A stretch of DNA of 64,000 bases from Polynucleobacter sp. AP-Ainpum-60-G11 (lineage in GTDB: Bacteria > Pseudomonadota > Gammaproteobacteria > Burkholderiales > Burkholderiaceae): positions 372,001 to 436,000 of the forward strand of contig NZ_CP061318.1 of NCBI RefSeq assembly GCF_018688375.1, given 5' to 3'. The position numbers and the translations under genes were made by a program. Each line of letters begins with the position of its first letter. The stretch's first letter is position 1. The notes beneath the pieces were generated by a model. It saw only the letters and a list, made by a program, of their open reading frames with translations, was not told where the DNA came from and did no database searches. Below are positions 33,104 to 48,536 of this stretch, piece by piece.

Positions 33104-33823
33104 TTGGCTCACCTCAATTTGGATTCAAAAATAGATCTGATCGCTCGCGATCCAGAATTCGCTGCTGAGCAGTTGAAGATTACTCTGGCGCACTTACAGC
33201 AAATTTTGCAAGCAACGAATCGACAGGCGGTCAGTGCCCACCTAGCTCGGGACTCCAGCTTATCGACTGTTCAACGCCGACTACTGGCCGGGCTGCTAGG
33301 TGAGGGCGGTGAGCTTGTTTCTGGTAATCGTGATGAGTTAACGGGTTTGCTCACTCGCTCAAGTCTATTAGATGGGTTCTCTCAAGAGTCTTATCATTCA
33401 GCTGGTAAGTCAGGATCATTGGCCATCTGCTTTATTGATCTAGATGGTTTTAAAGTAATCAATGATCAACATGGGCATGCAATCGGAGACCAAGTATTAG
33501 TAGCAATCAGTCAGCGTATTCAGGCTGCGATCCGACCTACCGATATGGCTGTGCGCTGGGGTGGTGATGAATTTATCGTGGTGTTCGAGGGGGTGAGCAC
33601 ACCAGATGTGGTGATGCAACTGGCAACTCGACTGCTGGGGATTATTGGCGAGCCACTGCAATTAGATCTGAATAATCCGATGCGCTTATTTTTAGGTGCC
33701 AGTATCGGCGTTGCGATTAGGGTCGATGAACAAATATCAATGACCGATTTAGTCAATCAGGCTGATCAGGCAATGTATCAAGCGAAAAAATCAGGGCAAA
33801 ACAGCATTCAGATTTTTGCTTGA
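33104..33823 (+). CDS. GGDEF-domain diguanylate cyclase
   Basis: A 239-residue protein with a short N-terminal helical region and a complete GGDEF domain: the active-site GGDEF is 153-157 and an inhibitory I-site RPTD is at 144-147, five residues upstream, as in product-inhibited cyclases. It should make c-di-GMP in the cytoplasm; no sensor or membrane part is visible. It starts with TTG 33104, nine bases after an AAGGA. Two c-di-GMP-binding YcgR-type proteins lie nearby. Confidence 0.88.
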   Translation: MAHLNLDSKIDLIARDPEFAAEQLKITLAHLQQILQATNRQAVSAHLARDSSLSTVQRRLLAGLLGEGGELVSGNRDELTGLLTRSSLLDGFSQESYHSAGKSGSLAICFIDLDGFKVINDQHGHAIGDQVLVAISQRIQAAIRPTDMAVRWGGDEFIVVFEGVSTPDVVMQLATRLLGIIGEPLQLDLNNPMRLFLGASIGVAIRVDEQISMTDLVNQADQAMYQAKKSGQNSIQIFA

Positions 33824-36236: not shown

Positions 36237-36995
36237 ATGAAATTTAATATATTCCCTCCTGAAGCACTGAAAAGCATTGAACCTAAGTTTCATGTTGAGC
36301 CACGTGCTATTGCAAAAACAATTGAACGCGAATTACATAAAAAGCCGCTAGCCGGTCTATACACACTTGATGGATCAGCCAGGGAATTGCCGGTATCGCT
36401 GTTAGATATTGCGCAAGGCTTATTGGTGATGCAGCCTCTAGTCAAGCCTGAAGGCGGTCTGACTAGTGTAGTCGGCGGTCAAAGATTGGTTGTCTTGTGT
36501 GGTGACACTGGCAAGATGCAATTTTTAGCGAACAATCTCAAGTTAACTGAAGATGGCAATCTCACATGCCCTTTGCCGGCCGATTTAATTTTGATTCAGC
36601 GCAGGAAAGAGTTTCGTACGCTTGGACCTGGCGATGAGGATTTGAATTTTGTGCTCTGTTTGGGCGCAGGCCAAGAACTGTTAACTAAAGTCATTGATAT
36701 CTCTGATCATGGGGTATTGCTTGATCTTCGCTTGGGTGCAACTGAAGTTGAGGTTGGAAGATATTGGCACTCTGGCTATTTTGAGCGCCTCAAATCACGC
36801 TCTACTACGATTGATCTTGTGATCAAAAACGTTCGTCCTGGAGCCGCAATGGATCGTGTTCGTGCGGGCTGTGAGCTTTATGAGCCTACTAAATTGGCTT
36901 TGAAGGAATTTGAAAGTACGCGCAGTGCCATTGAGAATGCTCGGGTCCAAGGCCGCCTCAATCGCTGGTATCTGGGGGCATCGTGGCATGAATAA
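36237..36995 (+). CDS. YcgR-type flagellar brake protein with PilZ domain (copy 1)
   Basis: A 252-residue protein: a YcgR-N domain (residues 1-115) and a PilZ domain with the c-di-GMP ligands R122/R123 and R127 in RRKEFR and DISDHG at 154-159. Such proteins bind c-di-GMP and slow the motor through stator or FliG contact. It shares about its whole length with the second copy at 44635. It heads the cluster that holds the degenerate chemosensory genes. Confidence 0.88.
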   Translation: MKFNIFPPEALKSIEPKFHVEPRAIAKTIERELHKKPLAGLYTLDGSARELPVSLLDIAQGLLVMQPLVKPEGGLTSVVGGQRLVVLCGDTGKMQFLANNLKLTEDGNLTCPLPADLILIQRRKEFRTLGPGDEDLNFVLCLGAGQELLTKVIDISDHGVLLDLRLGATEVEVGRYWHSGYFERLKSRSTTIDLVIKNVRPGAAMDRVRAGCELYEPTKLALKEFESTRSAIENARVQGRLNRWYLGASWHE

Positions 36996-37036
36996 TTTCG
37001 CTCTAAGAGATCACCTAATATCCGAATGAATTGACT

Positions 37037-37852
37037 ATGAGCCTATTTGCCAACTTCACCACCGGAAAACTCATCATGATCATCAGCGCGCTGATGTTCA
37101 TTGTGTTGCTGTATTTCTTTATCAAAGATTTTTACGGCAAAGTCGTTGAGGATGTGAAGACGAATGGAATTGGTCCTGAACCCATTGAACCAGTCATTGT
37201 GGCCAGCCTTCAAAAAACGCATCAGCTTGAAGAGGTCATTAATCAAAAAATTGCCAACATGAAGTTGGACCTCATGGCTGAACGTTTGCGTATTACTTCA
37301 ACCGCAGAAGTCTTAAAAAATCTCGCAGTTGAGCGCCATCTTCCAGAGACCTTGTATCAAATTTATTTTGAGACTCGTGCATTTCCTAAAAAGAGTCTTG
37401 AGGCGCAGCAAACAGATTTAGAGTGGCATGCCCAGGCCGGCATTACGGATCTGAAGGTTGATCCCTTGCCCTTAGATGATGGCACGGTCATTCATTTCAC
37501 CTTGCATAACTACCCTTACACGCTGACCGCTATTAACCATCGATTTGCCAGAACTTATTACGTGGAGTTGACCTTACGTGATGTAGATGATGTCAGATTG
37601 TTTGTGGTGCGCGTGAAGGCAAATGAAACAACAGGGCGCGATATTTTGGAGACTGCCATCATCGAGATGAAGTCAGGTGATTGGATTGATGATATTGCGA
37701 GTTGCCGATTATTGATGGATAAGCGTAAGACTGAGGTTCAGTTGATGGCCGAGCATCGCGAAGTGGAAATGCTTAAACAACGTTTTGTTTTAAATCATTC
37801 CGGCAGTAAATTCAGCGCAAGTAAAGCTGACTCTGGTCGTAAGAAAGGCTAG
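37037..37852 (+). CDS. Hypothetical membrane-anchored protein
   Basis: About 271 residues from ATG 37037: an N-terminal membrane helix (LIMIISALMFIVLLYFF, about 12-28) followed by a helical and then beta-rich soluble domain (DPLPLDDGTVIHFTLHNY, YVELTLRDVDDVRLFVV) and a basic tail. An upstream in-frame TTG at 37031 also exists. It sits between ycgR and the PDZ gene in a tight row of genes. No family recognised. Confidence 0.7.
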   Translation: MSLFANFTTGKLIMIISALMFIVLLYFFIKDFYGKVVEDVKTNGIGPEPIEPVIVASLQKTHQLEEVINQKIANMKLDLMAERLRITSTAEVLKNLAVERHLPETLYQIYFETRAFPKKSLEAQQTDLEWHAQAGITDLKVDPLPLDDGTVIHFTLHNYPYTLTAINHRFARTYYVELTLRDVDDVRLFVVRVKANETTGRDILETAIIEMKSGDWIDDIASCRLLMDKRKTEVQLMAEHREVEMLKQRFVLNHSGSKFSASKADSGRKKG

Positions 37853-37860
37853 AGACTATC

Positions 37861-38886
37861 TTGTTTTCATTTCGACTCCAGCGCTCGCAGCGCAATCTTT
37901 ATTTTTGGTTCTTAGCTTTCTCGGGATTTTTAGTCGCCGTCTCGCTCATGACGCTGCTAGGTGCTGCAAGTGAATTATCAAGCGCCTCTATCGAGTTAAA
38001 AAACCTGAAGGTCGTTAGTCCAAACCTTGAGGATTTTGTTAATACACAAAATATTGACTTTCGATTGAATGCCAACAATACCCAGCGCAGATTGAAGGCT
38101 GCTGATATCCCAAAGCTCGTGGATGATGCGATCGTGCCGGTAGGTTTAGACGAGGCTGTTACCAGGGCATTCCAATTCTTTGCCGAGTTTGAAAATAAGC
38201 GTTTCAAGCCGATTTTGACAGTCACTCCGCCAGTGATTGAATCTGTTGAGCCTGGTTCTCCCGCCGAATCGGCTGGCATCAAAGCCGGGGACCTTGTCTT
38301 GAATGTGAACTCAGCCAAAATTGAATCAGTCATGGGTTTTTATCTTGCCTTAAATGAGAAACCATCCGCCGAGGTAGCGCTCAAGCTTTTAAGGCACAAG
38401 AAAGACAATGTATCGGTGGTATTGCGTCTGATTGGTAAGGGCCCAATCAATGATAGTAATTGCGGGCTCAAGTTTTCAACTCCACCAGATGCAGTGTATT
38501 TAACTGAGCAAGAAACCAAGCGCCAAGCTGAGCAATATCGCCGCGATATGCTTACTAGTATTCCGGTAGATTGGCGTCCTGAGGCCGCAAACAATCTCAT
38601 GCAAACTGCGAAGCGCCTCAATCTCATTGCAAAAAGCGTGATTGATCCCTCTGGTGCTAATCCTGCCAAAATTCAGTCTAAGGATGTATTGGCTTGGCAG
38701 CATAAAAAGTTTCTAGAAAATGTGGATACGTATTTTTCTCTTAGAAGAAAAATTGAGAGTAGAAGTAGCTCCCATTTAATGGGCATGGGCGATGCAGTTG
38801 TTGGCTTTGTATCTAGCCTGTTTATTTTTGCGATCGCATTGGGATTGTTTTGGTATCAGCGTCGAGTAACTGGTAAAAAATCATGA
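37861..38886 (+). CDS. PDZ-domain protein with two membrane helices
   Basis: The 341-residue protein has an N-terminal membrane helix (FWFLAFSGFLVAVSLMTLLG), a periplasmic segment, a PDZ domain at about 122-185 (SVEPGSPAESAGIKAGDLVLNVNS is typical), a helical stretch and a C-terminal membrane helix (VVGFVSSLFIFAIALGLFW). No protease domain is present. PDZ proteins of this type bind peptides or partners. It starts with TTG and overlaps the next gene by ATGA, so it is coupled to the CheW-like gene. Confidence 0.8.
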   Translation: MFSFRLQRSQRNLYFWFLAFSGFLVAVSLMTLLGAASELSSASIELKNLKVVSPNLEDFVNTQNIDFRLNANNTQRRLKAADIPKLVDDAIVPVGLDEAVTRAFQFFAEFENKRFKPILTVTPPVIESVEPGSPAESAGIKAGDLVLNVNSAKIESVMGFYLALNEKPSAEVALKLLRHKKDNVSVVLRLIGKGPINDSNCGLKFSTPPDAVYLTEQETKRQAEQYRRDMLTSIPVDWRPEAANNLMQTAKRLNLIAKSVIDPSGANPAKIQSKDVLAWQHKKFLENVDTYFSLRRKIESRSSSHLMGMGDAVVGFVSSLFIFAIALGLFWYQRRVTGKKS

Positions 38887-39290
38887 GCAATCTTGAGAAT
38901 CCAGAATATTGGCTTGGTATGCGCATCAATGGCGAAAGATATGTGCTGCCAGCAAGCTCAGTGCAGTCCGTTTTTTTATATCCTGAAGCTGAGCAATCCC
39001 TAAAGGATTTAAGAATTAGCGGTGTGGTAGTTCATGAGGGTGCGCCGGTTTATCTGCGTAATCACTTTCAGGTATTACGATTTAATCGTCGATCAGAAAA
39101 TATTGCCGATTGGCAGCAAGTTCTCAAGCCAGGGGCTGCACCCTGGATCGTCGTATTAAAGGATGGTCTTAATAAGGGTATTGGTTTTAGGGTGAACAAT
39201 ATTTCCGGCCCTTTTCATGCATCCGTTTTAAGTGATTCATTATTTGTGCATCACAATGGGATCGATCACCTTTTGGTGGAGGCTTCATAG
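38883..39290 (+). CDS. CheW-like protein (divergent)
   Basis: A 135-residue protein fits a single CheW domain: WLGMRINGERYVLPASSVQSVF at the start matches the first CheW strands, then GVVVHEGAPVYLRNHFQVL and APWIVVLKDGLNKGIGFRV match the later part (in CheW, INLRG and the VDEVLG segment). Several consensus residues are absent. CheW links receptors to CheA. It overlaps the PDZ gene and precedes the receptor-like gene. Confidence 0.65.
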   Translation: MSNLENPEYWLGMRINGERYVLPASSVQSVFLYPEAEQSLKDLRISGVVVHEGAPVYLRNHFQVLRFNRRSENIADWQQVLKPGAAPWIVVLKDGLNKGIGFRVNNISGPFHASVLSDSLFVHHNGIDHLLVEAS

Positions 39291-39330
39291 AGCCGGGTGA
39301 CTGGCCTTATTCATTAGCTAGAAAAAATAT

Positions 39331-41277
39331 ATGAGCAAAAAATATAAAAACCATATCTTTCAGCGAGCGACGATCCCTTGGCGTTGGCTAGCAATTGCTT
39401 CGTTTGTGATTGCGCTAGTAAGTAGCGTTGGTGCATTTATTACAGCGCGTAGCTGGGTTTCTGATGGAAAGTATTTGCAATCAATTGATATTGAGCAGAT
39501 TGAGGTACTCCGCCTCATCCCGGCATTAAAAGTGCTGCAATCCCAAACGAGTGGCGCTTTTGGTCTAGAGCCTAGTTTTTTTAATAATCTTAAAAAATCA
39601 GATGGTCTCTTTAAATCCATTACAGATGATGTCAAGGTGCCTGTAGATGCCCCAGCAACTGATTCTGGATCTGCCAAAACTTCTAATACGAATTCGGCAA
39701 ATCAAGCACCGAGTACGGACTCTAGCAAGCTAGCTACGCTCTCCGATAACGCTGCCTTGGCCTTTTTCCAAAAGTTAGATGCCAAAATTATGAAGGTGGT
39801 CTTTGGTAAGCCTGATAAATACGCTCATTTGACTGAAGAAAAGCTTGACGAGGTTGAAGCTCAACCAGCTGAAGCAAAGTCATCTAAAGTTGCCAGCGTT
39901 CAAGATGTCCTGATAGGGGCAAAGAAGACAGAGCTAGCAATCGGCACAGTCATAGCGCAAGAAAAAAGTTTGGCTGGATTTGGGATTCTTGCAAAGTCAG
40001 CAGAAGTCTTATTGTCGCCAAAAGGTGTACTGGAATTAGATAAGATTGCCAGTGATTCGCCAGTGAAAAAGTATGCGGAAAGTCTGAATGCTTTTCTGAA
40101 GGCGAATGATGCTTGGCAGAAAAATATCACGGATGCAGCTAGCACCTCTGAGCTGCAAAAAGCTTTAGGTACAGTGATTGATCAAAAGGTATTACTTGAA
40201 ATTGAGTTGGGTAAAAAGGCCTCTGGAAAATCACCCTCTAAATTAGGTGAAGTGATGACCAAGGTTCATCAAACTCCTTGGCATACGAAGCTGCCTCAAG
40301 AAAGCGCCTTAGCCATTAAGCTTTATTCAAGCGGCATGACGACGATTCGTGATTTTGCTTCTAATCATGAAGCGTTGAAGGTAGTGGCTCAGCAAAATTC
40401 TCAAGACTTGGGATTCTTTGACTTTAAAACTGCCGGTGGATTTTTGGGTCTGACTATTGCCTCCATTGTTGGCATATTTGGTATTGCTGTTGGTGGCTTC
40501 GTCTTCTTCCGCAACACCAGCTTAAACGCCCTGGATTTGCAGCGCACTACCAAAGTGGCTTCTGCTGCTGATCAGCTCTTAAGTTCAATCGACTTAGGCT
40601 TTGCTAATGCCCCAAGTATGAAGGTGATGGATACGCCTAAGAGTGAGCCTCAGCCTGTTGCTGCTCAGCGCGCACCGCAGCCGGCTGCAGATCCAGCTTC
40701 GCCAGAATTGAAAACAGTTGTGAATGTGATTTCTGAGTTAAGTGGTGATTTGAAGCAAAAAATTAGCGAGATAGAGCGTCGCTTCAAGTTGCTCAGTCAG
40801 TTAAGTAACAAGCTACGACATTCTGTTAACACCTTGCAAGATAAAGCGGCGCAAATACGCCCCGCCAATTCTGGTGAGGATGAGCAAGCCTATTCTGGCT
40901 CCAATGAGAGAGCTAGCAGAGTGGGGCCTTTAGATCAGTTGCAAGATGCATTCTTTGCTTTGAAACAGCAGGGCGTCAGATTGTATTTGGCCATCTTGGA
41001 TAACCACTCTAGTAAACAGCTCGCCGTAGAAACTGAGCAACTCAATCTCTTGGTTGATCGTGTTGAGGCAACCGTTTCAAAAATGAGAGGATCCCTTGCT
41101 GTAGCCCTAGAGCAAGCGGCTGCTACTGAGCAATTTGCACCAGAAATTTCTTTAGAGGCAATCGAGCTCTTGGGTATGGATGCTAAGCAAGTGATACGTG
41201 ATCTCGATAGCTGGGAAGAAGAGTTCGATGGCTTAGGTCAAGAGTTCTCAGATCTCAAGCGTCAAGCGAAAACTTAA
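39331..41277 (+). CDS. Receptor-like protein, PilJ/MCP topology with degenerate signalling region
   Basis: The 648-residue protein has an N-terminal membrane helix (about 17-37), a large Ala/Ser/Lys-rich periplasmic region (about 40-370), a second helix (GFLGLTIASIVGIFGIAVGGF, about 371-393) and a cytoplasmic part of about 250 residues with long helices (QKISEIERRFKLLSQLSNKL, QLNLLVDRVEATVSKM). This is the layout of PilJ and of methyl-accepting receptors, but the conserved hairpin-tip motif (EAARAGE-type) is not recognisable. It may bind the CheW-like protein. Confidence 0.6.
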   Translation: MSKKYKNHIFQRATIPWRWLAIASFVIALVSSVGAFITARSWVSDGKYLQSIDIEQIEVLRLIPALKVLQSQTSGAFGLEPSFFNNLKKSDGLFKSITDDVKVPVDAPATDSGSAKTSNTNSANQAPSTDSSKLATLSDNAALAFFQKLDAKIMKVVFGKPDKYAHLTEEKLDEVEAQPAEAKSSKVASVQDVLIGAKKTELAIGTVIAQEKSLAGFGILAKSAEVLLSPKGVLELDKIASDSPVKKYAESLNAFLKANDAWQKNITDAASTSELQKALGTVIDQKVLLEIELGKKASGKSPSKLGEVMTKVHQTPWHTKLPQESALAIKLYSSGMTTIRDFASNHEALKVVAQQNSQDLGFFDFKTAGGFLGLTIASIVGIFGIAVGGFVFFRNTSLNALDLQRTTKVASAADQLLSSIDLGFANAPSMKVMDTPKSEPQPVAAQRAPQPAADPASPELKTVVNVISELSGDLKQKISEIERRFKLLSQLSNKLRHSVNTLQDKAAQIRPANSGEDEQAYSGSNERASRVGPLDQLQDAFFALKQQGVRLYLAILDNHSSKQLAVETEQLNLLVDRVEATVSKMRGSLAVALEQAAATEQFAPEISLEAIELLGMDAKQVIRDLDSWEEEFDGLGQEFSDLKRQAKT

Positions 41278-41308
41278 TACGGTTAACTAAAGATAAAGCG
41301 CACATCCC

Positions 41309-42898
41309 ATGTCTGAAGAAAAACCGCTATTTTTAATTGACGTTGATCGGGCGATTGAGGGCTTGGTCTCCTCAGTGCCGGCCAATGGCGGTGCTGGTTC
41401 AGCTAGGCTGGAGTCTTCTGTGATGTATTGCGTTGATTTAGCCAATGCTCTTGATGGTGCTGGTCTAGATGCTTTAAGTGCATTTGCAAGTGAGTTATCT
41501 GAGAGTTTTACAGCTAGTAGCGCTCAAGCATTTTTATTGATTCCAGATTTAGTCGCTCTGGTCAATGCAGAAGCCTCACATATTCACTCCTCTGGTGGTT
41601 CTAGTCCCTTGGTTAGTGTTGAGCAACTCAATCAGGCCAAGAGTGCATTCGAGCAGAAATTGGCGCAACTCAAGGCGGGTGTCCCAGTCTCCAAGGAGCC
41701 TATCTCTGCACTAGTGTCTGTCGTACAAACTGCGGAGTTGGTGGGTGAACCGAAAGAGGTATCGATAGCCCAACCGATGGCTCAGCCAGTGGCGCCCATC
41801 CTCGAAGATGAGTATGTGGATGAATTTCCAAATCAAGAATTTGCATCTGACATCAAAGAAGGTTTGCGCGCCTCTGAAAAAATTCCTGAGCCTCAAGTTC
41901 AGACTCAGAGCCCGCAAGCTCAGGTCCAGTCTGATGCACCTAGTGATCGTGAGATGGAATTAAATCGCACGCTAGATCGCACGATTAGTGAATTGAAGAA
42001 TCTCTTTGCCCCTAGGCAAGAGTCTCCGCCAGTCGTTGTCCCAGAGCCAAGGCCTAAAGCGTTTGCGATTCCCGAAGGCTTATCTCAGCCAATCGATCGC
42101 GCCAGTGCTTTTGAGTACTCCAGTAATTCACGCTCTTTAGACAAGCACTATGTTTTGGATCGATCAACAAATTTAAATCGATTACAAAAAGCCCGTAGCT
42201 TAGCTGGCAAAGGCAATGGTTGGAGTGGAGTTGAGCTCGACTTTGTATTAAGCAAGGAGCAAGATGAATTGATTCGCGTAGGACAACAATCCTTGCGACA
42301 TATTTTTGACAACTTAACTGATGAGTTGTTGATCGATGAAGTTTATGCAGACTCCGATGTTGCTCAGCAGTTATTAACTATCCTGAGTATTTTGCCGCCA
42401 TGCCCGAGCATTTTTGCGGTTCAGCAAGAGCTCATGATTTTTATCGATTTGGATCACATTTCTTTATCTCAAGAACACTTGTTGGCAGTTGGCAGCATGA
42501 TGGCTGAAATCGGTGGTTCTTTGGAAGTGCATCACGAGGGCGTTCGCCTGTCCTGCCCATCTAGTCTTTTGAGAATGCCAATGGCTTATTTCTCCCGTCA
42601 TGGAGAGTATTTCGCTGTATCTGCGATCCAATATTTAGGTGAAGAGCAGTTGGAGAAGGTTGCCAGCTCAAAAGTGGACTCTTTAGGTGAAATCATCCAT
42701 CCCGCCAGGAAAATTGCTATCCGGGCAGGTTTAGAGACCTACTGGATCTATGTCCACGAGTTTTTGGGTGTTGAGAATATGAACATTCACCAAAATATAC
42801 CTGCGGCATTAGACAGGCCGCATTGGTTGGCTGGTGTGGCTTTAGATGGCGCCAATACTGTCTATTCTTGGGTTGCCTTGGATCGGTACGTCAGATAA
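41309..42898 (+). CDS. CheA/ChpA-like scaffold lacking visible kinase motifs
   Basis: The 529-residue protein resembles CheA in its last part: GSMMAEIGGSLEVHHEGVRL at 395-414 aligns with the G2 end of the kinase domain (LGGxIELESExGxG), and the C-terminal 90 residues align with the CheW-like P5 domain, including YWIYVHEFLGVENMNIHQNI and GVALDGANTVYSWVALDRYV. No His-containing HPt motif, N-box or GxG ATP loop is visible. The middle is Pro/Gln-rich. It likely acts as a scaffold. The stop TAA overlaps the flgA ATG by one base. Confidence 0.55.
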   Translation: MSEEKPLFLIDVDRAIEGLVSSVPANGGAGSARLESSVMYCVDLANALDGAGLDALSAFASELSESFTASSAQAFLLIPDLVALVNAEASHIHSSGGSSPLVSVEQLNQAKSAFEQKLAQLKAGVPVSKEPISALVSVVQTAELVGEPKEVSIAQPMAQPVAPILEDEYVDEFPNQEFASDIKEGLRASEKIPEPQVQTQSPQAQVQSDAPSDREMELNRTLDRTISELKNLFAPRQESPPVVVPEPRPKAFAIPEGLSQPIDRASAFEYSSNSRSLDKHYVLDRSTNLNRLQKARSLAGKGNGWSGVELDFVLSKEQDELIRVGQQSLRHIFDNLTDELLIDEVYADSDVAQQLLTILSILPPCPSIFAVQQELMIFIDLDHISLSQEHLLAVGSMMAEIGGSLEVHHEGVRLSCPSSLLRMPMAYFSRHGEYFAVSAIQYLGEEQLEKVASSKVDSLGEIIHPARKIAIRAGLETYWIYVHEFLGVENMNIHQNIPAALDRPHWLAGVALDGANTVYSWVALDRYVR

Positions 42899-43587
42899 TG
42901 CGCTTGTTTGGCTTTGGTCTACTTGCTTTCTTCATTCAGTGCCTTGCGGCACTCTCCGTTCAGGCGGCCTTACCTCCAGATATCGACGCATCCATCAAAC
43001 GCTTTATCCAGAAAAGCCCTAGCGTGAATGGCCTGCGTGTTGAGGTAGAGCTGATGGAGCCAAATCAGGTGATTCCAGCCTGTTTAGGCGGTTCTGTTGA
43101 GATATTGACCCCTCCCGGAGTTCGACTCTGGGGCAGAAGTACCTTGCAATTGCGCTGTGCCAAGGCCTCTTGGATGGTCAATGTGCCTGTCAATATCCAT
43201 GCTTATGGGGATTATGTAGTGGCTAGTCGCTACCTTGGTTTTGGCCAGAAGATTGAAAATGGCGATATTCGGGTGATTGAGGGGGATTTAACCACCTTGC
43301 CTGATGATGTCTTGAGAACCCCTCGGGCTGCCTACGAAAAGGTATTGGGTCGATCGCTGCAAATGGGGGCACCAATAGGGCTAAACGATTTAAAGGAATC
43401 ATCCGTAATAAAGGTAGGAGATCCTGTTTTGATCCAATTAGTGGGTAAGGGATTTCAGGTATCGGGAGAAGGAACCGCCCAAACTGCCGGAATGATAGGC
43501 GATATGGTGCGTGTGCGCCTGATGGATGGTCAGGTCTTACAAGGCAAGGTTTTAAGGCCGGGTGTGATCGGGGTTACTGTAGAGTGA
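42898..43587 (+). CDS. flgA: FlgA, flagellar P-ring assembly chaperone
   Basis: The product is about 229 residues from ATG 42898, whose first base is the last base of the preceding stop (TAATG), which fixes the start and couples the genes. It has a signal peptide (LLAFFIQCLAALSVQAALP) and the FlgA SAF-type C-terminal region (ASRYLGFGQKIENGDIRVIE, VGDPVLIQLVGKGFQVSGEG). FlgA helps FlgI form the periplasmic P-ring. Upstream in the same operon are the chemosensory-like genes. Confidence 0.93.
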   Translation: MRLFGFGLLAFFIQCLAALSVQAALPPDIDASIKRFIQKSPSVNGLRVEVELMEPNQVIPACLGGSVEILTPPGVRLWGRSTLQLRCAKASWMVNVPVNIHAYGDYVVASRYLGFGQKIENGDIRVIEGDLTTLPDDVLRTPRAAYEKVLGRSLQMGAPIGLNDLKESSVIKVGDPVLIQLVGKGFQVSGEGTAQTAGMIGDMVRVRLMDGQVLQGKVLRPGVIGVTVE

Positions 43588-44634: not shown

Positions 44635-45390
44635 ATGCCATTCAACATTTACCAGCCTGATCCCGGCCAGATTGATCCTAAATACAATTTAGACAGTCGA
44701 TTTCTATATAAGAATTTGGAGAAATTTTTCTCACCAGGCCCAGTCTGTGCAATCTTTAATACCAAGTCATCGCAATTGCTGCCTGTCAGTGTGGATGGTT
44801 TAGAAGTCAAGGCGGGTTTCAAATTTAAGGTAGAGGAAGCGCCAAAAAATGGAGTGCATTCCTTCCTAGCGGACCCATGCATTTTTGTTGCGGGGCTAGA
44901 TGTGGGCAAGTTACAATTTTCAATGCAGGGCTTGCGATCCTTAGATAACGGCTTGCTAGCATGTGATATTCCTAAGGAGGTAGCCCTCATCCAGCGTCGA
45001 GAAGACTTCAGGGTGCCGGCACCGCCTGATAGGGCATTTAAGGCCTTAATTTACTTTAGTGTTGGCAAGGAAATGATCGCCGATATTGTGGATATTTCCG
45101 ATAAGGGTATTCAGTTTGATATTCGTCTTGGCGCAACCGAGCTAGAGGTTGGCAAAATCTGGACTGGCTGCACCTTAGAGAGATTGCAAGCTCGGACTGC
45201 TAAGTTCGATCTCATCATTCGGAGCATTAGACCAAGCCTTCTAGAGGAATCCCGGGTTCGGGTGGGTTGCGAGCTCCATGAGCCAACCAGGCTAAATGAA
45301 AATGAATTTGTGAGCACCAGGACGGCCATTCAGAGCTCTAGAGTGAATAGACGCATTAATTACTGGTATCAGGAAGCCTCCTGGTGCTAA
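44635..45390 (+). CDS. YcgR-type flagellar brake protein with PilZ domain (copy 2)
   Basis: The 251-residue paralogue of the 36237 gene: RREDFR at 121-126 and DISDKG at 153-158 supply the c-di-GMP-binding arginines, Asp and Gly. Both copies end in the same way (CELxEPTxL, then STR and AIxxxRVxxRxNxWY), which shows recent common ancestry. The order flgM-flgN-ycgR resembles the flgM-flgN-flgZ set of Pseudomonas. It probably controls motor function by c-di-GMP. Confidence 0.88.
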   Translation: MPFNIYQPDPGQIDPKYNLDSRFLYKNLEKFFSPGPVCAIFNTKSSQLLPVSVDGLEVKAGFKFKVEEAPKNGVHSFLADPCIFVAGLDVGKLQFSMQGLRSLDNGLLACDIPKEVALIQRREDFRVPAPPDRAFKALIYFSVGKEMIADIVDISDKGIQFDIRLGATELEVGKIWTGCTLERLQARTAKFDLIIRSIRPSLLEESRVRVGCELHEPTRLNENEFVSTRTAIQSSRVNRRINYWYQEASWC

Positions 45391-47720: not shown

Positions 47721-48536
47721 TTAACTGGTGATTTTGGCAGAAATCGCTTTAAAAAATCCCATAGGCAATACAAACTCATGTGTTTCCCCTTTGCTTACGG
47801 GGTTCCAGCTTAAATCATCTTGATCTAATTCAACGCGTTCAGCAGTTAGAGCTTTGATCCAGCCAATGAAATCTAAAGGCTGCTCCAGGGCAGATAGGGA
47901 CGCATTGTGAAGTTTTTCAAAAGCAGCGGCACCAGCAGTCTCATCTTCTCCACCCACGATGAGGATGGAGAGCGGCTCATCTATCTGTAAGGTGGCCATT
48001 TGGCGAACCATGAGTAAGGCCTTTTTGAGAGAAGCCTGATCGTGTGCGGTAACTAGAATGCGCTTAATGTTGCTGCCGTAATAAGCCACGATGTTCGCTT
48101 CTGGATCAATGGTGGGGAAAATAATGTAATCAATATCAATCTCATGATTGACTAGGCGTTGATCCAGCTGAGGGTATTTAGCAAAACGGCGGCTCACCTC
48201 AGAGCGCAATTTGACGCTGGTTGCATACCAAAAATTCTCTTCGATTGCTTTGAGACTTCTTGCTAGATCAACTGACTTTGAAAATACTTGGCCCAAGTCA
48301 TATCGCACTGGGTATAAAAACCCTGACATTGTTTTGCGATCCGACAAAGGGATTTCATCTATTAGGAGAACGCGGTGCCCCAATTGTTTAATGCTGTGGG
48401 CGGTACCGTGACCTAAATGAATGGTTGAATCCGCATCTAGAGTGCTGGCGATGCAAATAACCCGTGATAACTCGGCGCCAAAAATATTTCGTAAACCCGC
48501 GGCTTGATCGACGCCGCTTGAAGTGGTCGTGCTCAT
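47721..48536 (-). CDS. FlhG-like protein without a functional Walker A motif
   Basis: The 271-residue protein keeps the N-terminal DQAAGLR motif (residues 10-16) used by FlhG to stimulate the FlhF GTPase, and the MinD-like strand HRVLLIDE. The Walker A region, which in FlhG/MinD is GKGGVGKT, here reads IASTLDADSTIH (29-40), with no lysine. It is probably inactive as an ATPase and may regulate flagellar number or position through FlhF only. It overlaps flhF by 4 bases. Confidence 0.75.
   Translation of the reverse strand: MSTTTSSGVDQAAGLRNIFGAELSRVICIASTLDADSTIHLGHGTAHSIKQLGHRVLLIDEIPLSDRKTMSGFLYPVRYDLGQVFSKSVDLARSLKAIEENFWYATSVKLRSEVSRRFAKYPQLDQRLVNHEIDIDYIIFPTIDPEANIVAYYGSNIKRILVTAHDQASLKKALLMVRQMATLQIDEPLSILIVGGEDETAGAAAFEKLHNASLSALEQPLDFIGWIKALTAERVELDQDDLSWNPVSKGETHEFVLPMGFFKAISAKITS

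Follow-up and report, generated by a model that had tools for sequence, protein, structure and literature searches.

Within a stretch of 64,000 nt from Polynucleobacter sp. AP-Ainpum-60-G11 (contig NZ_CP061318.1, positions 372,001 to 436,000; the whole stretch is called the window), five adjacent genes on the + strand (37031-42898) encode a membrane protein, a PDZ protein, a CheW-like protein, a receptor-like protein with two transmembrane (TM) regions, and a CheA-like protein. Taken together, the evidence given below favors the view that they encode a chemosensory-derived, phosphorylation-free complex, which is probably a fixed accessory of one type of flagellum that lacks the docking site for CheY. 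The window genome is a single contig of 1.9 Mb that is rated 100% complete. The last four genes had been described earlier from the letters of the window (the sequence-only reading), and their coordinates, strand, and adjacency were confirmed. The genes, the domains of the CheA-like protein, and the following flgA are:

37031..37852, +, single-TM membrane-anchored protein (TM at 13-31), first of the five genes
37861..38886, +, membrane PDZ protein, the PDZ domain (Pfam PDZ_6, 5.7e-9) flanked by TM regions 15-33 and 312-330
38883..39290, +, CheW-like protein (Pfam CheW, 1.7e-4, 21.7 bits, cut-off 23.5)
39331..41277, +, receptor-like protein, two TM regions with a helical stretch between them and long C-terminal helices (low-confidence model)
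41309..42898, +, CheA-like protein with the domain order of CheA and without the catalytic motifs (Foldseek, motif counts)
41315..41680, +, helical bundle resembling P1/HPt, residues 3-124; residues 1-90 contain no His
42161..42280, +, P3-like helical hairpin, residues 285-324, assigned by position only
42281..42568, +, P4-like domain, residues 325-420, lacking the ATP lid and every box
42569..42895, +, P5-like (CheW-fold) domain, residues 421-529
42898..43587, +, flgA (Pfam ChapFlgA, 7.1e-23)

The CheA-like protein has no match in Pfam or NCBIfam up to an E-value of 1. The individual domains of its AlphaFold model match those of CheA, i.e. P1, P4, and P5, with P3 assigned by position (helices 285-300 and 307-324, the first with a per-residue confidence, pLDDT, of about 59-68). 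The top eight Foldseek matches of the model are CheA entries (E 4.2e-10 to 7.8e-8), and a profile comparison backs the CheA fold (E 8.9e-6). A single-pass comparison of the family profile with a small set of true CheAs yielded an E-value of 0.0019 for one piece, and values of 3.1-5 for three others. E-values from iterated models (1.7e-15 and weaker) were not used as support. The P4-like domain has about 95 residues, compared to about 172-190 in CheA. The protein is apparently too diverged for its origin to be assigned to the flagellar or the pilus class.

The catalytic motifs were scanned in 39 distinct sequences of the CheA-like family, fragments included, with seven true CheAs as controls. 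The patterns for the P1 His (H[ST][LIV]K[GN]), the N-box, G1, the F-box, and G2 were found in 0 of the 39 sequences, while the controls contained the P1 His in seven of seven, N, G1, and G2 in six of seven each, and F in five of seven cases. Therefore, the CheA-like protein cannot be a normal kinase. The absence of the HPt His, the N-box, and the ATP lid had been noticed in the sequence-only reading, and the motif counts as well as the sequence agree with it. That reading had named two findings that would speak against it, an unlike fold or intact HATPase motifs; what we found was a CheA/CheW-like fold in the CheA-like protein, with an ATPase fold that is without the motifs.

Residue 40 of the CheA-like protein and its equivalents are His in 21 and Tyr in 13 of the 34 members with a readable N-terminus (L059 lacks the N-terminus), and the window protein has Tyr. 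From the spacing to the following Gly, we read this residue as probably lying two positions off the phospho-His site. Some copies deviate in length. In Polynucleobacter hallstattensis (L057:10001-11465), the gene appears as two open reading frames (ORFs) of 206 and 247 residues. Two drafts encode longer proteins with a long linker (L014:7691-10315, 874 residues; L015:7038-9449, 803 residues), and the receptor-like proteins of the same two loci have 817 and 792 residues, with a sensor region that seems duplicated by eye.

To characterize the selection on the gene set, the ratios of non-synonymous to synonymous substitution rates (dN/dS) were calculated pairwise and by region for the window versus L003, L047, L004, and L006, and dS was checked for saturation. 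For L003 and L047, respectively, the values were 0.081 and 0.091 for P1, 0.117 and 0.093 for the linker, 0 and 0.062 for P3 (40 codons), 0.011 and 0.005 for P4, and 0.026 and 0.045 for P5. In the comparisons with L004 and L006, dS was saturated in P4 and P5, and the dN of P4 was the lowest there too. Overall, the dN of P4 was below that of the other four regions in three of the four comparisons; in the remaining one, only P3, which is short, had a lower value. Where dS was unsaturated, dN/dS ranged from 0 to 0.13 across the regions of the CheA-like protein, and was 0.054 for the CheW-like and 0.080 for the receptor-like protein; dS was saturated for the PDZ and the membrane protein. The very strong purifying selection on P4 argues for repurposing rather than decay. 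The sequence-only reading had spoken of a degenerate, probably non-catalytic complex; the kinase-dead, chemosensory-derived nature stands, and "degenerate" is misleading, because P4 is under such selection and the set is retained together with one flagellar lineage in two families.

Nine of the 12 aligned members of the CheW-like family match Pfam CheW at E≤1, and one relative, G098, reaches 23.5 bits with its neighbours in the frame. When the CheW-like profile was compared to true CheAs, the result was not significant (probability 1.8%). For the receptor-like protein, two TM regions were predicted (best 20-38 and 374-392), in line with the earlier description. Significant similarity to methyl-accepting chemotaxis proteins (MCPs) or to PilJ was not found: no MCP match was obtained, the hhalign probability against the MCP profile was 0.7%, and PilJ was absent among the 25 of 44 Pfam families listed. 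It is thus by operon position and topology only that we would read it as a receptor. No claim about its fold is made, because the model is poor and the fold search with this low-confidence model gave no match at E≤0.001; PilJ (7zjr, E 1.4) and the sensor domains of Tsr were at noise level. When the three family profiles were run against solved structures by sequence alone, nothing useful was returned; the best matches of the receptor-like protein there (E 0.0033) were chance matches to coiled coils and were rejected.

The remainder of a chemosensory pathway was not found in the window genome. The CheW-like gene is its sole CheW match, and neither the MCPsignal domain nor CheR had a match genome-wide at E≤0.001. 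All nine REC domains are located in frames of at least 214 residues, so that there is no stand-alone CheY. The size of CheB is not matched by any of the nine frames with a REC domain, and the model of CheB itself was not searched. The earlier statement that CheY, CheR, and CheB are missing nearby thus holds genome-wide for CheR and stand-alone CheY, and by frame size only for CheB.

The gene set is linked to one flagellum type. The genus sample comprised 121 Polynucleobacter genomes, and the set recurs in it, the CheA-like gene being present in 30 genomes (in G046 as a fragment only). Carrier isolates include Polynucleobacter sp. MWH-UH35A and P. bastaniensis. FlhA was found above the cut-off in 41 of the 121 genomes, and two further matches were sub-threshold. 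The FlhA scores form two groups, with 27 genomes at 816-837 bits, 12 at 870-901 bits, and two partial matches. The CheA-like gene is present in 27 of the 27 low-scoring genomes, and in none of the other 14 genomes whose FlhA exceeds the cut-off. Three carriers have no FlhA match (G046, G052, and G054), and two of these, G052 and G054, are 78-80% complete.

Among the 41 FliM-bearing genomes of the genus, 40 have a readable FliM, that of G100 being a fragment. The N-terminal CheY-binding motif is missing in 27 of the 40, including the window genome, and 26 of these 27 genomes carry the CheA-like gene. The same 27 proteins have a C-terminal extension, FLKSPLE-ARLGPSMMR-E-GELY or a variant of it, which is most divergent in G018 and G036. 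The other 13 keep the motif, and 12 of their genomes lack the CheA-like gene. Three carriers have no readable FliM (G051, G085, and G100). For comparison, the best-scoring FliMs outside the type were inspected (24, from 268 matching genomes of the order), and the motif is present in 24 of 24.

The CheA-like gene was also searched for beyond the genus sample. At the family level, it was found in eight of 299 genomes and one of 25 genera, i.e. in Polynucleobacter only. At the order level, it was found in seven of 399 genomes, of which three belong to Polynucleobacter and four to another family (G409, G498, G572, and G602). Chance can be excluded, because the gene is conserved in the genus and in these four genomes. 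All four have the same five-gene order followed by a FlgA homologue, and at the receptor-like position they encode a protein that is similar in size and topology, with marginal sequence similarity. Three of the four have the tailed, motif-less FliM; G498 has just short FliM matches, none of them to the Pfam model. FlhA, FlhF, FliA, and FliM of three of the other-family genomes (FliM in two) are 57-71% identical to those of the window, compared to 33-50% for the other flagellum type of Polynucleobacter itself. The CheA-like proteins are just 24-29% identical. The common gene set and the flagellar identities suggest that the module was transferred between families, or else that it is an ancient shared one. 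In a protein search, the three matches with a given organism were all from Polynucleobacter. In another protein search, one relative of the other-family kind was named only as a Burkholderiaceae metagenome-assembled genome. A second wide protein search with a profile added two further identifiers among the matches listed. No paper on this gene set was among the literature matches listed.

Several observations weigh against the proposed complex and its link to the flagellum. The model of the receptor-like protein is poor (pLDDT 48.6), and the protein is unlike MCPs. The whole-chain TM-scores of the CheA-like model to CheA are low (0.17-0.32), and the match of the P4 fold is common to other histidine kinases too. 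In three carriers (G061, G068, and G087), MCP and CheR were matched elsewhere in the genome, and in two of them, G068 and G087, a canonical CheA was read as well, so that the complex cannot just be seen as a substitute for other chemosensory systems. Two drafts break the correlation: in G046, a FliM with the motif occurs together with a fragment of the set, and in G025 (93% complete, FlhA not found), FliM is motif-less and the set is absent; possibly, these are mixed or incomplete bins. The motif pattern is also missing from eight more distantly related FliMs of the order, which have a variant LLSEEELAAL-like start, and the FliM of a ninth genome, G689, is truncated; the CheA-like gene is absent in all nine genomes. 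Lastly, the co-occurrence represents one event rather than many, because FliM and the complex both belong to a single flagellar lineage.

We nevertheless consider a phosphorylation-free accessory of this flagellum to be the probable function. The receptor-, CheW-, and CheA-like proteins would form a membrane complex via the retained CheW/P5 contacts, and this complex would influence the flagellum through direct contacts between proteins or through conformational signalling. It could do so at the C-ring, with the tail of FliM as the candidate site, or as a scaffold for polar placement or assembly. A motor without a docking site for CheY may be served in another way. The dead-ATPase CheA fold together with a FliM without the CheY site would be a natural example of a flagellum that is controlled or placed independently of CheY, and would allow one to study which functions of a chemosensory system persist once phosphate is no longer used.

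Two neighbouring genes encode PilZ-like proteins:

36237..36995, +, PilZ-like neighbour (Pfam PilZ, 15.9 bits, below the cut-off of 22.5)
44635..45390, +, second PilZ-like protein, 3′ of flgA and of two genes that are presumably flgM and flgN, named from position (Pfam PilZ, 20.1 bits, below the cut-off)

The strongest rival is a placement or assembly scaffold, in which the complex, working with FlhF and FlhG, serves as a mark of the pole or anchors the base of the flagellum, and control of rotation is not involved. The CheA-like stop codon and the ATG of flgA share one base, and homologues of flhA, flhF, flhG, and fliA are clustered with the gene set. The FlhG-like protein (47721-48536, - strand) is without a Pfam match at E≤0.01 and, by eye, lacks a P-loop, while the DQAxxLR start is kept, so that placement may need another factor. 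In addition, the kinase-less FimL of Pseudomonas is polarly localised according to PMC3019171. Such a scaffold alone leaves the missing CheY site and the tail of FliM unexplained, and we regard it as a tentative option, more doubtful than not. Both features of FliM are part of a somewhat weaker candidate, a phosphate-free array in which the sensor, the CheW-like ring protein, and the pseudokinase CheA would signal by conformation directly to the C-ring, the CheY peptide having been traded for the FliM tail and the module having spread between families; in this specific form, it is possible, albeit unlikely.

A control of the motor linked to cyclic diguanylate (c-di-GMP), in which the complex would couple an envelope signal to the adjacent PilZ-like proteins that act on the motor, appears rather improbable. 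A GGDEF protein is encoded at 33104 of the window, the first PilZ-like gene is common to several loci of the genus, and both PilZ-like proteins contain visible RxxxR and D/NxSxxG motifs, which we take to be those of PilZ domains. However, both matches are below the Pfam cut-off, and there is no PilZ match in the four other-family loci nor in L015-L020. The sequence-only reading had tied the complex to flagellar assembly or to c-di-GMP; the link to the flagellum is retained, while that to c-di-GMP comes from these neighbours alone.

An active phosphorelay by another route would require that another kinase phosphorylates P1 or that the reduced P4 still works. That 21 of 34 members have a His close to the expected site is compatible with this, as is the precedent of CheA3 of Rhodobacter sphaeroides, which lacks a kinase domain and works with a partner CheA (PMC10782961). 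However, the window protein has Tyr at this site and no His within residues 1-90, an HxxKG-type motif is found in 0 of 39 sequences, neither another CheW-domain protein nor CheR nor a stand-alone CheY was found in the window genome, and its FliM lacks the CheY motif, so this route is very improbable. A decaying remnant of a chemotaxis operon, as might be suggested by the loss of the catalytic motifs and the adaptation genes, the split copy in L057, and four genomes in which the membrane and PDZ genes were lost or were never present, is contradicted by the dN/dS values of the CheA-, CheW-, and receptor-like proteins and by retention in 27 of 27 genomes of the lineage as well as in another family, and can hardly be upheld.

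Several known systems can be compared. The gene order CheW, receptor, CheA is also that of the Pil-Chp system (PilI-PilJ-ChpA), whereas the window set has no similarity to PilJ beyond noise and no REC domain, and is located beside flagellar genes. Compared to CheA (P1-P2-P3-P4-P5), the window protein has the same P1, P4, and P5 folds in the same order; it lacks a visible P2 and the phospho-His, and its P4 is halved, with the N, G1, F, and G2 boxes gone. The domain layout of the CheA3/CheA4 pair of R. sphaeroides is a further precedent, with the difference that CheA3 retains a phosphorylated P1 and a partner kinase. The survey PMC10782961 describes this pair as having one member without a kinase domain, and states that an ATPase domain is present in every CheA and that its size variation is not substantial. 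FimL of Pseudomonas aeruginosa is, according to PMC3019171, a kinase-less relative of ChpA in which Gln replaces the phospho-His. It shares with the window protein HPt-like domains without His and the tie to a motility organelle. In contrast, FimL resembles the N-terminus of ChpA alone and works beside a catalytic ChpA, whereas the window protein keeps P4- and P5-like parts in a genome in which another CheW-domain protein was not found. Neither FimL nor CheA3 matches a kinase-dead CheA with a halved P4 in a genome in which no other chemosensory genes were found.

The core of the set consists of the CheW-, receptor-, and CheA-like genes beside flgA, because four genomes of the genus (G018, G036, G049, and G085; loci L017-L020) hold just these three. 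The membrane and PDZ genes were not found in L017-L020, where no upstream ORF of at least 200 residues resembles either. They are usual partners outside the core, which corrects the sequence-only reading in that the PDZ protein, listed there with the other three, is not a core component. Its gene overlaps the CheW-like gene by four bases (stop and start). The membrane gene is located 5′ of the PDZ gene in L014-L016, L021, L023, L024, L048-L051, L053-L055, L057, L059, and L061-L063. Scans for sigma-54 and sigma-28 consensus sequences gave no more matches than expected by chance. In L017-L020, the CheW-like gene adjoins a gene on the opposite strand that resembles rpoN.

A clear P-loop is, by eye, also absent from the type-B FlhG-like protein (L113:3634-4485). 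Two flagellates of the other type, G007 and G080, have no CheW or CheR matches and have kept an MCP. Its signalling region is a partial match (0.0013, below the cut-off), a TarH sensor domain was read in G007, and the gene in G007 (L109:7774-9720) is located between stator genes and flhB.

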